Below, piece after piece: positions 1 to 32,877 of a DNA stretch of 39,313 nt (position 1 is the first letter of the stretch; each line of letters starts with the position of its first letter). The stretch comes from Cypionkella sp. GTDB lineage: Bacteria; Pseudomonadota; Alphaproteobacteria; Rhodobacterales; Rhodobacteraceae. Below the pieces are notes generated by a model. That model saw only the letters and a list, made by a program, of their open reading frames with translations, was not told the origin of the DNA and did no database searches. Location: contig JALOSF010000016.1 in NCBI GenBank assembly GCA_025458525.1, positions 1 to 39,313 of the forward strand, written 5' to 3'. A program made the position numbers and the translations under genes.

Positions 1-1
1 G

Positions 2-436
2 CCTACGGCGGAGGGCGTCCTGCGCGACATCGCGGCGCGCGAGGCGCCGCAGCTGATCACGACGGTCGATTCTGCAGGCACTGCCGGTTATCACGTCGGT
101 GAGCCGCCGGATCCACGCAGCGTGGCGATCGCGCGCGAGCGTGGTTACGAGTTGTCGGCGTTGCGCGCGCGACAGGTCAGTCGCAGCGACTTCGAGCAGT
201 TCGACCTGATGCTTGCGATGGACCGCGCCAACCTCGCGGCACTGCGCGCGCTGGCACCTGCCAGGTCACCGGCTCGACTCGCGCTGTTCATGCATTACGC
301 CGGCGTCGGGGCTGGCGACGAGGTGCCCGACCCCTACTACGGTGAGCGTGGCGATTTCGAGCGCGTGCTCGATCTGGTGGAGCAGGGCGGTCGCGCGCTG
401 CTCGCTCATTTGAGCGAGCAGGCGCGCCACCGCTGA
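2..436 (+). CDS. Low-molecular-weight protein tyrosine phosphatase, 5' end missing
   Basis: The reading frame is open from the first bases of the window, so the start and the N-terminal P-loop (CX5R) lie outside; the first visible residues, PTAEGVLRD, follow directly after that loop in the family. About 144 residues are visible. Family marks are DSAGTAGYHVGEPPDPR, then RARQVSRSDFEQFD, the LAMDRANL helix, and VPDPYYG, whose first Asp is the general acid of LMW-PTPs. The enzyme removes phosphate from tyrosine residues (or small aryl phosphates) in the cytoplasm, and bacterial members often act on capsule-control kinases. Codon use is much richer in GCG/CGC than in the rest of the window, and the protein resembles Xanthomonadaceae members rather than alphaproteobacterial ones. 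It probably does not belong to the same chromosome as the genes from 640 onward. Confidence 0.85.
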   Translation, partial: PTAEGVLRDIAAREAPQLITTVDSAGTAGYHVGEPPDPRSVAIARERGYELSALRARQVSRSDFEQFDLMLAMDRANLAALRALAPARSPARLALFMHYAGVGAGDEVPDPYYGERGDFERVLDLVEQGGRALLAHLSEQARHR

Positions 437-440
437 ACCC

Positions 441-636
441 TCAGTGCTCCGGCGCGCGCGGCGGCGTGGCCGTGTTCGACGGCGGCGCCGACGGCCAGAT
501 GACCTCGGGATGCTCCGCCGTCGCTTCGGGGGACGTCGATTCGGGTACCGCGGCTTCGGGAGCCGCGACTGAAACTGGCGCAGGCGGCGCAAGCGCAGGC
601 GTCGGATCCCGGGTCACTGCCTCGGTCGCCGCGGCA
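441..636 (-). CDS. Pro/Ala-rich C-terminal tail, possibly RNase E, cut at its 5' side
   Basis: On the minus strand an open frame runs down to a TGA at 441-443, four bases past the stop of the convergent phosphatase gene. It encodes about 64 residues of Ala/Pro/Glu/Thr-rich low-complexity protein. It includes PEVIWPSAPPSNTATPP and ends in PEH. This is the style of the disordered C-terminal scaffold of gammaproteobacterial RNase E. As I recall it, a phosphatase gene convergent with rne is an arrangement seen in Xanthomonadaceae, which is why I suggest RNase E. The catalytic part is absent because the sequence changes identity at about 636. A plus-strand frame also crosses this interval (AVFDGGADGQ...), but it has no family features and only joins the downstream gene by chance. 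Identity is inferred from composition and remembered context only. Confidence 0.4.
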
Positions 637-655
637 TGTATTGGGCCGATTCCGC
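630..655. other. Composition and identity junction (probable chimeric join)
   Basis: Left of this interval both strands carry gammaproteobacterial-looking coding sequence. To the right the plus strand carries a roseobacter-type protein beginning in mid-domain. The minus-strand Pro/Ala-rich frame loses its character at ~636, and the plus-strand frame becomes recognisable at GPIPQQQSLFYQKHM (from 643). No direct repeat, transposase end, tRNA or integrase marks the site. A GGATCCCGGG string lies nearby at 604-613, but it is in frame within the tail-coding sequence and may be natural. Confidence 0.6.
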
Positions 656-1158
656 AACAACAGAGCCTGTTCTACCAAAAGCACATGACGCTTCACATGG
701 TCCCGGCCTTTGACCGCGGCTTCATGCGACAGCTTGTGAATGTCTTTCTGATCCGCCATCCGGCGCGGGTGGTGGCAAGCTATGCCAAAAAGCGGGAAGG
801 GCCGACATTGGCGGATATCGGCTTTGTCCAGCAGGCAGAGCTGTTCGACCAGGTCGCCGATTGGCTGGGGCATCCGCCTCTGGTGATCGACAGCGCCGAT
901 ATCCGCGCCGCGCCGCGCGATGCGCTGTCGCGGCTTTGCGCGGAGCTGGGCATTCGCTTTACCGAGGCGATGCTGCACTGGCCCAAGGGGCCGAAGCCAT
1001 TTGACGGGATTTGGGCGCCACATTGGTATGGCGCGGTCCATCGCTCAACCGGGTTCGAGGAGCCGGAGGGCCCGCTGCCCGATTTGCCCGCTGCCTATCG
1101 GGCCATCGCGGATCAGGCTTTGCCATTCTACGAACGGCTTGCCACCTTCAAGATATGA
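637..1158 (+). pseudogene. Sulfotransferase-family protein, N-terminal part missing at the junction
   Basis: About 170 residues of a P-loop sulfotransferase-like family common in Rhodobacteraceae are present. Readable marks are LFYQKHMTLHMVP, then VNVFLIRHPARVVASYAKKREGP (the 3'-phosphate-binding region, with RHPARVVASY matching the RxPxxxxxSY pattern), and a C-terminal HWPKGPKPFDGIWAPHWY. The usual N-terminal segment with the P-loop (WSGPRN-like) that binds PAPS is absent. The frame upstream of 637 belongs to an unrelated sequence, so no genuine start exists. The gene ends at TGA 1156-1158, directly before a terminator. If the left 640 bases are a misjoin, the real gene is intact elsewhere and this is only a partial copy of the record; if they are genuine, it is a broken gene. 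The substrate is unknown. Confidence 0.7.
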
Positions 1159-7078: not shown

Positions 7079-7664
7079 GGTGGCGCGCCTTGTCCGTGCG
7101 ATGCAGCGCCCGGCGGAGGCATCGTCTGACTTCGACTTGAACCCGCTGATCAAGCCCCCGTCAGGCAGCGTTTTGCGGCCCGCGGGTGTGTTGATCCCGG
7201 TGTGGTTGCGGCCAGAAGGGGCCAGCGTCATCCTGACGAAACGGTCATCGCATCTCAAACATCATCCGGGGCAAGTTGCCTTTCCCGGTGGCAAGGTTGA
7301 TCCGACGGACGCGTCAGTCGAGGCCGCTGCCCTGCGTGAAGCGCAAGAGGAAATCGGCCTCGCGGCGCACCTTGTTGACGTGCTGGGCCATCTGCCAAAC
7401 CACGAAACGGTGACAGGGTTTCGCGTGACGCCCGTTTTGGGCCTTGTCAGAGACGCTTTTGACCCGATTGCCGAGCGTGGAGAGGTCGAGGAAGTCTTTG
7501 CCGTGCCGTTGTCCTTCCTGTTGTGCCCCGAGAACTTTTCCATCGAGCGGCGACAATGGATGGGGCAATGGCGGCGGTATTATGCTGTGCCCTACGGTCC
7601 CTATTACATCTGGGGCGCCACAGCCCGGATCTTGCGTGGTCTGGCAGACAGGGCCGCGCTGTGA
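7071..7664 (+). CDS. CoA pyrophosphatase (Nudix family)
   Basis: 197 aa. It carries the CoA-specific motif before the Nudix box (LTKRSSHLKHHPGQVAFPGG) and then the box itself, ending AALREAQEEIGL. This combination marks the NudL/PCD1 group, which splits CoA into 4'-phosphopantetheine and 3',5'-ADP, clearing CoA or damaged CoA. The start ATG at 7071 lies inside the end of hslO (8-bp overlap). The stop TGA overlaps the GTG start of the CCA-adding enzyme (GTGA), pointing to translational coupling. A methionine-initiated frame further upstream runs through hslO and is not the protein start. Confidence 0.92.
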   Translation: MDEVARLVRAMQRPAEASSDFDLNPLIKPPSGSVLRPAGVLIPVWLRPEGASVILTKRSSHLKHHPGQVAFPGGKVDPTDASVEAAALREAQEEIGLAAHLVDVLGHLPNHETVTGFRVTPVLGLVRDAFDPIAERGEVEEVFAVPLSFLLCPENFSIERRQWMGQWRRYYAVPYGPYYIWGATARILRGLADRAAL

Positions 7665-8803
7665 AGATTTCTGGCGCCTGGATCACGCAGCCCGGCACCC
7701 AAGCCTTGTGCGCGACATTGGAACGGGCAGGGCACAAGGCGCTCTTTGTGGGCGGTTGCGTGCGCAACGCCGTGCTGGGTGTGCCCGTCACCGATATTGA
7801 TCTGGCGACGGATGCCACGCCGGAAACTGTCTCTGCGCTTGCCGAAACTGCGGGGTTTCGGGCCATTCCGACCGGGGTCGACCACGGCACCGTCACCGTG
7901 ATCGCCGACGGGATCGCGCATGAGGTGACGACCTTTCGCCGCGATCTGGCAACCGACGGCCGTCACGCGACCGTTGCCTATACCGGCGACATCGCGGCAG
8001 ATGCCGCGCGGCGCGATTTTACGATGAATGCGCTTTACGCGGACAGGAACGGGTCGGTGATCGACCCTATCGGGGGGTTGCCCGATCTGCTTGCGCGGCA
8101 GGTGCGCTTTGTGGGCAACCCCGAGGCACGGATCACCGAAGACTATCTGCGCATCCTGCGCTTTTTTCGGTTTCATGCGCATTTCGGCGATCCTTCGGCG
8201 GGGATCGATGCCGAAGGTTTGGCGGCCTGTGCCACGTTATCTGCGGGAATAGAGACGCTTTCAAAAGAGCGTATCGGCGCGGAAATGCGCAAACTGCTTG
8301 CAGCAGATGATCCGGCGCCTGCGGTCGCCTCCATGGCGGCGGCGGGCGTTCTGGCGCATGTTCTGCCCGGGGCCGACACGCGTGCGCTTGCCCCCCTTGT
8401 CGATCTGGAACCCCCCGGGCGGGCGCATTGGCTGTGCCGTCTTGCGGTGTTGGGCGGAGAGAATGTGGCCGAGGCGCTGCGGTTGTCACGCGCCGAAGCC
8501 ACACGTCTGGCAAAGATAAGGGAGATGATCGGCGCCACCCACGGCCCAGCCCCGATCGGGTTTCTCTTTGGTGCTGCGCTGGGGCAAGATGCCCTTCTGG
8601 CCCGCGCGGCTGTGCTGGAAAGCCCCTTGCCTGCCGATTGGCAGGATGAACTGGCGCGCGGTGCGGCGATGACCTTTCCGGTCCGCGCGGCCGATCTGAT
8701 TGACCAATATCAGGGGCCCGCTTTGGGTGCCCGGCTGAGTGAGCTGAAAAATCGGTGGCTGGCCAGTGACCTGCGGCTGACGCGCGCGCAGCTTTTGGCC
8801 TAG
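7661..8803 (+). CDS. cca: CCA tRNA nucleotidyltransferase
   Basis: Adds or repairs the 3' CCA of tRNAs. 380 aa, starting at GTG 7661, which overlaps the preceding stop as GTGA. The class II nucleotidyltransferase head is clear: LFVGGCVRNAVLG at ~28-40, DIDLAT with catalytic Asp45/Asp47, then RRDFTMNALY (template region) and EDYLRILRFFRFHAHF (tRNA-binding helix region). The C-terminal third (LARAAVLESPLPADW...) is the divergent alphaproteobacterial helical tail; no HD phosphohydrolase motif is seen. A poly(A) polymerase function cannot be excluded from motifs alone, but the short size fits Cca. Confidence 0.93.
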   Translation: MKISGAWITQPGTQALCATLERAGHKALFVGGCVRNAVLGVPVTDIDLATDATPETVSALAETAGFRAIPTGVDHGTVTVIADGIAHEVTTFRRDLATDGRHATVAYTGDIAADAARRDFTMNALYADRNGSVIDPIGGLPDLLARQVRFVGNPEARITEDYLRILRFFRFHAHFGDPSAGIDAEGLAACATLSAGIETLSKERIGAEMRKLLAADDPAPAVASMAAAGVLAHVLPGADTRALAPLVDLEPPGRAHWLCRLAVLGGENVAEALRLSRAEATRLAKIREMIGATHGPAPIGFLFGAALGQDALLARAAVLESPLPADWQDELARGAAMTFPVRAADLIDQYQGPALGARLSELKNRWLASDLRLTRAQLLA

Positions 8804-8866
8804 CCGGTTTTCCTTGCGGCACTTTGGCGCTATATCCCACGGGTGACGCGCAAGAGGCCATTCCCC

Positions 8867-29644: not shown

Positions 29645-30289
29645 ATGACGCGTGGCGGGCGGGACAAGGATCGCGACGAACCGGAACGCAAATGCATTGT
29701 GTCCGGGGAAAGCCAGCCAAAAGCGGGTCTGATCCGCTTTGTGCTGGGCCCGGAAGGCATGATCGTGCCGGATATTCTGGCACGCCTGCCGGGTCGGGGC
29801 ATCTATGTCGAGGCCGATCGGTCGGCCCTTGCCAGGGCGGTCAAGAAAAACCTGTTCTCGCGCGCCGCACGCCAGCCTGTTACAGTTGCGGATGATCTGC
29901 CTGATATGGTTGAACGCCTGTTGGCACAGCGGGTGATTGATCTTATATCGCTGGCACGCAAGGCGGGTGACGCATTGTGCGGTTACGAAAAGGTCAAGGA
30001 TTGGCTGATCAAGGGTCAGGCCAGGACCTTGATTCAGGCCAGCGACGGTTCTGAACGCGGGAAAGAAAAACTTCGCCCGCCGAATGGGCCGGAATCCCTG
30101 ATTTCCTGCCTGACGGCGGGGGAATTGGGTTTGGCATTCGGCCGCGAACGTGCCATACACGCCGCGCTTGCGGCTGGTGGACTCAACAACCGTGTTGTAG
30201 AGGAAGCGGCAAGGCTTGTCGGACTGCGTGGGGCAGAGGACAAGCAGGTCGGCGACATGATCGCCGGGAAGGATACGAAGGACGCATGA
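29645..30289 (+). CDS. YlxR-family RNA-binding protein with L7Ae-like C-terminal domain
   Basis: 214 aa. N-terminal YlxR/DUF448 domain ([42 protein letters not shown], ~14-60), then an L7Ae/L30e-like domain (~95-190: [40 protein letters not shown]...). Both are nucleic-acid-binding folds. In Firmicutes these are two separate genes (ylxR, ylxQ) in the same operon position; here, as in other alphaproteobacteria, they are fused. The role is probably in translation or RNA control. The ATG is 23 bp after the nusA stop, and its site is partly sequestered in a hairpin. It overlaps infB by ATGA. Confidence 0.92.
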
Positions 30290-32877
30290 GCGATACAGAC
30301 GGCAAAAAACCCCTTGGTTTGGGTGGCGCACCTCGTTCTGGTCAGGTGAAGCAAAGCTTCAGCCATGGCCGGACGAAAAGCGTCGTGGTTGAAACGAAGC
30401 GCAAGCGCGTGGTCGTTCCCACAAAGCCGGGCGCAGCCGCGGGCGCAACGGGTGCAGGCGGCGGGTCGCCCTCGCTTGGTGATCCGGCGAAACGTCCTGC
30501 GGGGATTTCAGACGCCGAGATGGAACGCCGTCTGGCGGCGTTGCGGGCCGCAAAGGCACGCGAAGCCGCCGACAACGAACGCCGCGCCGAAGAAGAGCGT
30601 CAGCGTGAGGAAGATCGTCAGCGTCGCCGCGAGGAAATCGAAGCCAAGGAGCGCGAGGAGCGGGAGCGTCTGGAAGCCCTGCGCCTGAAGGCCGAGGAAG
30701 AAGAACGCGCCGCGCGCGCCGAGGCAGAGGCCCGCTTGGCCGCCGCAGCCCAGCGCAAGGCAGAGGTGCTTGGCACCCGCCCACGCTCGGCCGAGAAGCC
30801 CGCGCCAGAGCCGAAGCAAGCCGCGCCGGCCGAAAGTGCCGCCCCGTCGCGTTCGCAAGACGCAGCCGGGCCGCGCGGTGTTGCCGCAAAGGCCCCCCTT
30901 GCCCCCGCGCCCCAGCGCAAGACCGACCGTGAGCGCGAGGAGCGCGAGCGCAGCGCAAAGGCAAAGGGCGATGACAGCCGTCGTGGTGGCAAGCTGACCT
31001 TGTCGGCGGCGCTTGATGGCGAAGGTGGCCGGACGCGCAGCCTTGCCGCGATGAAGCGCAAGCAGGAAAAAGCCCGTCAAAAGGCGATGGGTTTTGGCAA
31101 CAAACCCGAAAAGCAGGTGCGCGACGTGCAGCTGCCCGAAACCATCGTGGTGTCGGAACTTGCCAACCGGATGGCGGAACGTGCGGCTGATGTGGTCAAG
31201 TCGCTCATGAAAATGGGCATGATGGTCACGATGAATCAGGCCATCGATGCCGATACCGCCGAGTTGGTGATCGAAGAATTTGGCCACAAGGCGGTGCGCG
31301 TGTCCGACGCCGACGTCGAACAGGTGATCGATACGGTTCAGGACAAGCCAGAAGATCTGGCGCCGCGTCCGCCGATCGTGACGATCATGGGTCACGTTGA
31401 CCATGGCAAGACCAGCCTGCTGGACGCGATCCGCAAGGCGAATGTGGTCGCCGGTGAGGCGGGTGGCATCACCCAGCACATCGGTGCCTATCAGGTCAAA
31501 ACCGCCAATGGCGCCTTGGTCACGTTCCTCGACACGCCCGGTCACGCCGCCTTTACCAGCATGCGGGCCCGTGGCGCACATGTGACGGATATCGTCATCC
31601 TGGTGGTTGCGGCCGATGATGCGGTCATGCCGCAGACGGTCGAGGCGATCAACCACGCCAAGGCGGCGAAAGTGCCGATGATCGTGGCCATCAACAAGAT
31701 GGACAAGCACGGCGCGGATGCCACCAAGGTGCGGACCGATCTGCTGCAACACGAGGTCGTCGTGGAGGCGATGTCGGGCGACGTGCAGGATGTCGAGCTG
31801 TCGGCCAAGACGGGCATGGGTCTGGACAATCTGCTTGAGGCGATCTCGCTTCAGGCCGAGATCCTGGAACTCAAGGCCAACCCGCACCGTGCCGCTTCGG
31901 GCGCTGTCATCGAGGCAAAGCTGGATGTGGGACGCGGCCCCGTCGCAACCGTTCTGGTGCAGAACGGCACCCTGCGCAAAGGCGATATCTTTGTCGTCGG
32001 CGAACAGTGGGGCAAGGTGCGCGCGCTGGTCAACGATCAGGGCGAAACGGTGCTGGAGGCTGGCCCCTCGGTTCCGGTCGAAGTGCTTGGCCTTTCGGGC
32101 ACGCCTTCGGCTGGCGATACGCTGAACGTGGTCGAAACCGAAGCGCAAGCGCGTGAAATCGCTGATTATCGGGAAAAGGCGGCCAAGGACAAACGCGCCG
32201 CTGCCGGTGCGGCCACCACGCTGGAACAGCTTATGGCAAAGGCCAAGGCCGACCAGTCGGTCGCCGAATTGCCGGTTGTCATCAAGGCCGATACCCAAGG
32301 CTCTGCCGAGGCTATCGTGCAAGCGCTGGAAAAGGTTGGCAACGACGAGGTTCGGGTGCGCGTGCTTCACTACGGTGTTGGCGCCATCACCGATACCGAT
32401 GTGGGTCTGGCCGAAGCATCGAACGCGCCGATCATCGGGTTCAACGTGCGGGCCAATGCGTCTGCGCGCCAATCAGCCAACCAGAAAGGGGTCGAGATTC
32501 GCTATTACTCGATCATCTATGATCTGGTTGATGACATCAAAGCCGCCGCCTCTGGCCTGCTCAAGGCCGAAGTGCGTGAAACCTTTATCGGTTATGCGCA
32601 GATCAAAGAGGTGTTCAAGGTTACGGGCGTTGGCATGGTTGCCGGCTGCCTTGTCACCGAAGGTGTCGCCCGCCGGTCGGCCGGTGTTCGCCTGCTGCGT
32701 GACAGTGTCGTGATCCACGAAGGCACGTTGAAGACGCTGAAGCGTTACAAGGACGAAGTGAAGGAAGTGATTTCGGGTCAGGAATGCGGCATGGCGTTCG
32801 AGCGCTATGAAGACATTCGTCAGGGCGATGTCATCGAAATCTTCGAGCGCGAAGAAGTGCAGCGCACCTTGGCCTAA
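30286..32877 (+). CDS. infB: Translation initiation factor IF-2
   Basis: 863 aa. A long charged N-terminal region (~70-260) rich in Arg/Glu/Ala, probably helical and partly disordered, then the IF2 N-domain and the GTPase: [16 protein letters not shown] (G1), [12 protein letters not shown] (G2), [10 protein letters not shown] (G3), [10 protein letters not shown] (G4) and SAKTGMG (G5), followed by the beta-barrel domains, and the fMet-tRNA-binding C2 domain from about 775. It brings fMet-tRNA to the 30S subunit. The start ATG 30286 overlaps the ylxR-like gene (ATGA). Internal in-frame starts for shorter forms, as in E. coli, are possible but not identified. A long terminator follows. Confidence 0.97.

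Follow-up and report, generated by a model that had tools for sequence, protein, structure and literature searches.

A gammaproteobacterial stretch at the end of an alphaproteobacterial contig, very probably a join made in metagenome assembly

The window analysed here is a stretch of 39,313 bases that makes up contig C187 in full, one of 197 contigs in a draft genome of 3,430,244 bases (completeness 87.46%, contamination 3.16%) that appears to be a metagenome assembly. The window is of two origins, with a break at about 624/625; the native gene order is kept in six congeners and the native left neighbour lies on another contig. Bases 1 to about 624 very probably stem from the chromosome of another organism and were attached to one end of a host contig by a wrong join in metagenome assembly. 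The chimeric edge is almost certainly artefactual and not real biology of the host. Since the window comprises the entire contig, the foreign stretch forms one end of it. A chimeric left edge had been foreseen in the original prediction and was borne out, 1–624 being gammaproteobacterial and the sequence from about 625 onwards being the host's own and matching its own genus. When the two sides were taken separately, as had been proposed there, the best relatives of the left side were in a gammaproteobacterial order and those of the right side in the host's own genus, so that the lineages on the two sides differ as in a chimeric contig. Coordinates of the features are given in table 1.

Table 1. 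Features at the left end of the window.
Feature	Position	Strand	Remark
low-molecular-weight protein-tyrosine-phosphatase gene, 3' part, foreign; cut by contig end	1..436	+	Pfam LMWPc
RNase E-like gene, C-terminal end, foreign, convergent with phosphatase; cut at junction	441..624	-	tail motif
junction	624..635	.	12 bases assignable to either side; possible microhomology
fused 230-aa ORF, artefactual, crosses junction	466..1158	+	reading frame open across join
native sulfotransferase-domain gene without first ~60 codons	625..1158	+	Sulfotransfer_5

The foreign left part and its relatives

The plus-strand frame at 2–436 was matched by Pfam LMWPc with E 7.1e-31 over profile positions 13–144 of 144, and a Pro/Ala-rich minus-strand frame stops at 441–443, ending EHPEVIWPSAPPSNTATPPRAPEH before its stop codon; these are the phosphatase 3' part and the convergent tail that had been predicted. 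The 58-residue tail alone gave no Pfam or NCBIfam match. Its sequence (EVIWPSAPPSN...APEH, stop) resembles the YVVWSSAPP... tails of long convergent genes that follow the phosphatase of its relatives. Four such relatives (L011, L013, L021 and L022) carry a convergent frame of 821–850 residues at most about 60 bases past the phosphatase, the relatives with this long frame being gammaproteobacterial or unclassified proteobacterial metagenome-assembled genomes (MAGs); MKRMLVNATQ..EELRVA stands near the start of the frame, which we take to be RNase E (rne), and its tails are of the type KPYVVWSSAPP...EE, stop. The foreign part is thus made up of the truncated ends of two genes that are neighbours on gammaproteobacterial contigs. 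Of the 122 phosphatase loci compared, 14 have the motif V[VI]W[SP]S ahead of a convergent stop, on a wider cut that takes in L120 (motif partly under the match) and L130 (outside the tree). At least 10 of the 14 come from the order of the Steroidobacteraceae MAG G420 (Gammaproteobacteria), while L012, L018, L022 and L023 are not known to be in it, and L119, the closest single locus (65% identity), is without the motif.

The best relatives of the phosphatase, up to 63–65% identical, were in the order of G420. In the order sample around this MAG, 72 of 296 genomes matched at E ≤ 1e-38 (best 63%), and in its class sample 13 of 369 at the same threshold, at least two of which (G420 and G448) are also in the order sample. 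No near source genome for 1–624 was found, the best protein identity being about 65%. The contig search for phosphatase relatives used the best 80 of at least 559 confirmed relatives. In a tree of 120 rows and 140 columns, from which L124 and L129 (repeats of L011 and L013), L130, L135 and L136 were left out, the window stood beside L018 and L122 within a set of nine (support 88/71) to which the Steroidobacteraceae locus L013 also belongs; none of the starred branches includes the window. With moderate confidence, the relationships of the sequence point to a gammaproteobacterium related to Steroidobacteraceae as the donor. The original prediction had named a gammaproteobacterial source of the Xanthomonadaceae type: the class agrees with the order-level best relatives, but Xanthomonadaceae, which were covered as part of the class and phylum samples only, were not confirmed, and the donor appears to be nearer to Steroidobacteraceae.

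The G+C fraction was 0.707 in 1–624 versus 0.610 in the rest of the contig. CGCG occurred 18 times in 1–624 (elsewhere mean 7.0 and maximum 17 per 624 bases) and GCGC 19 times, a number reached in 9 of 762 windows of that size, so the predicted GCG/CGC-heavy, deviant composition was recovered. Two of the 762 windows were as rich in G+C and three as far away in trinucleotides, and all equally deviant windows start at 30,325–30,425, inside the gene at 30,286–32,877, which is presumably infB. Composition is therefore insufficient as proof of foreign origin and was used as supporting evidence only. The stretch 30,325–31,050, with up to 72% G+C, covers the Ala/Glu/Arg-rich N-terminal part of this infB-like gene and is probably ordinary.

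The break and the native sequence

Mean identity to the six congeners whose flanks were fetched was determined in blocks of 15 bases and was 0.41 at 610–624, 0.78 at 625–639 and 0.68 at 640–654; nine blocks left of 625 gave 0.18–0.48 and fifteen right of it 0.56–0.93. The step thus falls at 625 and the break lies at about 624/625, some 12 bases to the left of the position (~636–643) first proposed. As the foreign minus-strand frame is still plausible across 624–635, these bases may belong to both sides. The earlier warning that a fused 230-residue protein would be wrongly annotated was justified, since the ORF crosses the junction and its Sulfotransfer_5 domain is partial: the profile match begins only at position 50 of 226. 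A perfect 16-base inverted pair connects 215–230 in the foreign phosphatase with 1029–1044 in the native gene; its arms code for ordinary protein stretches and both lie away from the join, which makes chance the likely origin of the pair.

The sulfotransferase gene was found in 10 of 12 congeners with 66–81% identity, the two without a match being drafts of 82–83% completeness. The congener protein aligns to the window gene from its residue 61, leaving about 60 extra native N-terminal residues in the congeners. The plus-strand sulfotransferase-family gene is broken at its left, as predicted. The absent 5' part was not found elsewhere in the host's own genome, nor was an intact second copy. Judged from the congener sequences, the native gene would begin within a gap that is missing from the contig. 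Flanks were fetched for six of the ten matching congeners (G001, G002, G003, G004, G006 and G007; not G005, G010, G011 and G012), and on the 3' side of the gene all six matched the window collinearly as far as about 2,500. In G001, G003 and G004 the collinearity extended to 7,273–8,821, near the end of the fetched stretch. DNA similarity to the other three (G002, G006 and G007) ends at 2,498–2,508, so gene order in the genus varies right of about 2,500. An inverted repeat of 12 bp, perfect and accompanied by runs of A and T, lies between two convergent genes at 1158–1185 and is likely a shared (bidirectional) terminator.

Against plasmid records the sulfotransferase gene gave distant matches only, and the top match of a secA-like window gene was Qingshengfaniella alkalisoli (72.8% over 98%), a member of a genus of Rhodobacterales, Alphaproteobacteria. 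This agrees with the label 'roseobacter' given to the host in the original prediction, which we also adopt. The right end of the window had no match among the other contigs of the host's own genome.

In all six flank-fetched congeners the kilobases upstream of the sulfotransferase gene are a conserved native segment, and the host's own genome carries this segment as contig C107 (6,086 bases). Base 1 of C107 was projected to 345, 345, 358, 367, 368 and 372 bases before window position 625 in the six congeners, extrapolated from the alignment start wherever the alignment began past base 1; a native continuation is thus present elsewhere in the assembly, at a projected distance of 345–372 bases from the break. 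The tie between C107 and the window rests on the congeners, and the approximately 350 bases between them were not found in the assembly searched. Bases 5988–6086 of C107 equal bases 1–99 of C65, an exact end overlap of 99 bases, and the two contigs are neighbours in the six congeners and were left unjoined by the assembler; the length of the overlap would fit de Bruijn assembly with k near 99. The native order is most likely C65, C107, a gap of about 350 bases and then window position 625, and in this order the foreign 624 bases occupy the place of the gap. The junction of foreign and native parts, whose presence in a related genome had been named as grounds for dropping the prediction, was absent from all six congeners. 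At DNA level, the single match of 1–624 among the 12 congeners was one of 39 bases (E 8e-4) in G009, the other 11 giving none.

Elsewhere in the same draft, C169 (L108) and C107 (L107) carry homologous copies of one region, 82% identical over 2.2 kb, which we take to be a malic-enzyme-like gene; this suggests that contigs of a related second strain were binned in, or that the copies are paralogues.

Origin of the join

We infer a laboratory or assembler origin of the join. The original prediction had read the edge as a misassembly or an in-vitro chimera, and the native left neighbour on C107 supports this. The native neighbour would have been lost in the gap of about 350 bases and the contig end extended with foreign sequence, the source of the extension being either a chimeric read or library fragment or a false path through the assembly graph at low depth, beside the gap. 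The chimeric fragment may be favoured, as an overlap of 12 bases would be too short for a join at k = 99; a longer shared word is possible.

Two other origins were weighed. Genuine horizontal transfer would have inserted a gammaproteobacterial chromosomal fragment into the strain's sulfotransferase gene. In the record the two sides are contiguous, a second, intact copy of the gene was not found in the host's own genome, as would be the case after a true disruption, and related phosphatases occur in 41 plasmid records, so that such genes can travel; however, the foreign DNA stands at a contig end only, its two truncated genes are chromosomal neighbours elsewhere, the longest match in 12 congeners was 39 bases, and the native neighbour C107 is present and ends beside the gap. 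Transfer is therefore very unlikely, and the same small probability is given to its more specific form, a real and recent insertion in one strain by non-homologous (microhomology-guided) recombination into the alphaproteobacterial sulfotransferase gene. A mobile element as the vehicle found little support. The foreign part had no match among phage records, and among plasmid records two weak partial DNA matches (67–70% identical); the related phosphatase proteins in the 41 plasmid records were all below 60% identity. No tRNA was found across the window, repeats in 1–1300 were short ones with none at the join, and profile scanning of four reading frames of 1–1158 gave no mobile family. No integrase or transposase was recognized in 1–1300, which weighs little since the foreign stretch is just 624 bases long and its far end lies outside the record.

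The left part might also be native but very divergent host sequence, that is, the host's own phosphatase together with a local rearrangement. The host's family has low-molecular-weight phosphatases with up to 55% identity to the window copy, so the phosphatase alone is no proof of foreign origin; two loci labelled Actibacterium reach 51% (among the best 80 of at least 559 relatives), and the window phosphatase is the sole match of its kind in the host's own genome. The tail motif and the phosphatase identity of up to 65% nevertheless point to the Steroidobacteraceae order, seven of the eight host-family phosphatases used in the tree form a separate starred group, and RNase E/G-family matches are already present in the host's own genome on two further contigs, C132 and C94. 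Taken together, this makes a native origin very unlikely, and a wrong join in assembly is the reading adopted here.

For use of the record, 1–624 should be trimmed, and the phosphatase, the minus-strand tail and the ORF at 466–1158 should be discarded as host annotations. Without trimming, a phosphatase, a fused 230-residue protein and a fragment of RNase E are credited to the draft, all of which the host most likely lacks, and the contig could pass for a case of gene transfer between classes.

The foreign part shares with the gammaproteobacterial phosphatase/rne pair the order of a phosphatase 3' end followed by a convergent RNase E-like 3' end with V[VI]W[SP]S, and differs from it in that the window copy is cut off at both ends and runs into a gene from a different class. 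Chimeric contigs are a known product of short-read metagenome assembly (PMC7111523, PMC3100316) and are usually diagnosed by coverage and paired-read support. The window resembles those described in these sources in that two organisms are present in one contig and the phylogenetic profile differs on each side. In the simulations of PMC3100316, assemblies contained a noticeable number of contigs that mixed species; the organisms mixed were often closely related, and for two of the four assemblers mixing was mostly within the same genus or species. By comparison with these simulations, a join between different classes, as in the window, is less usual.
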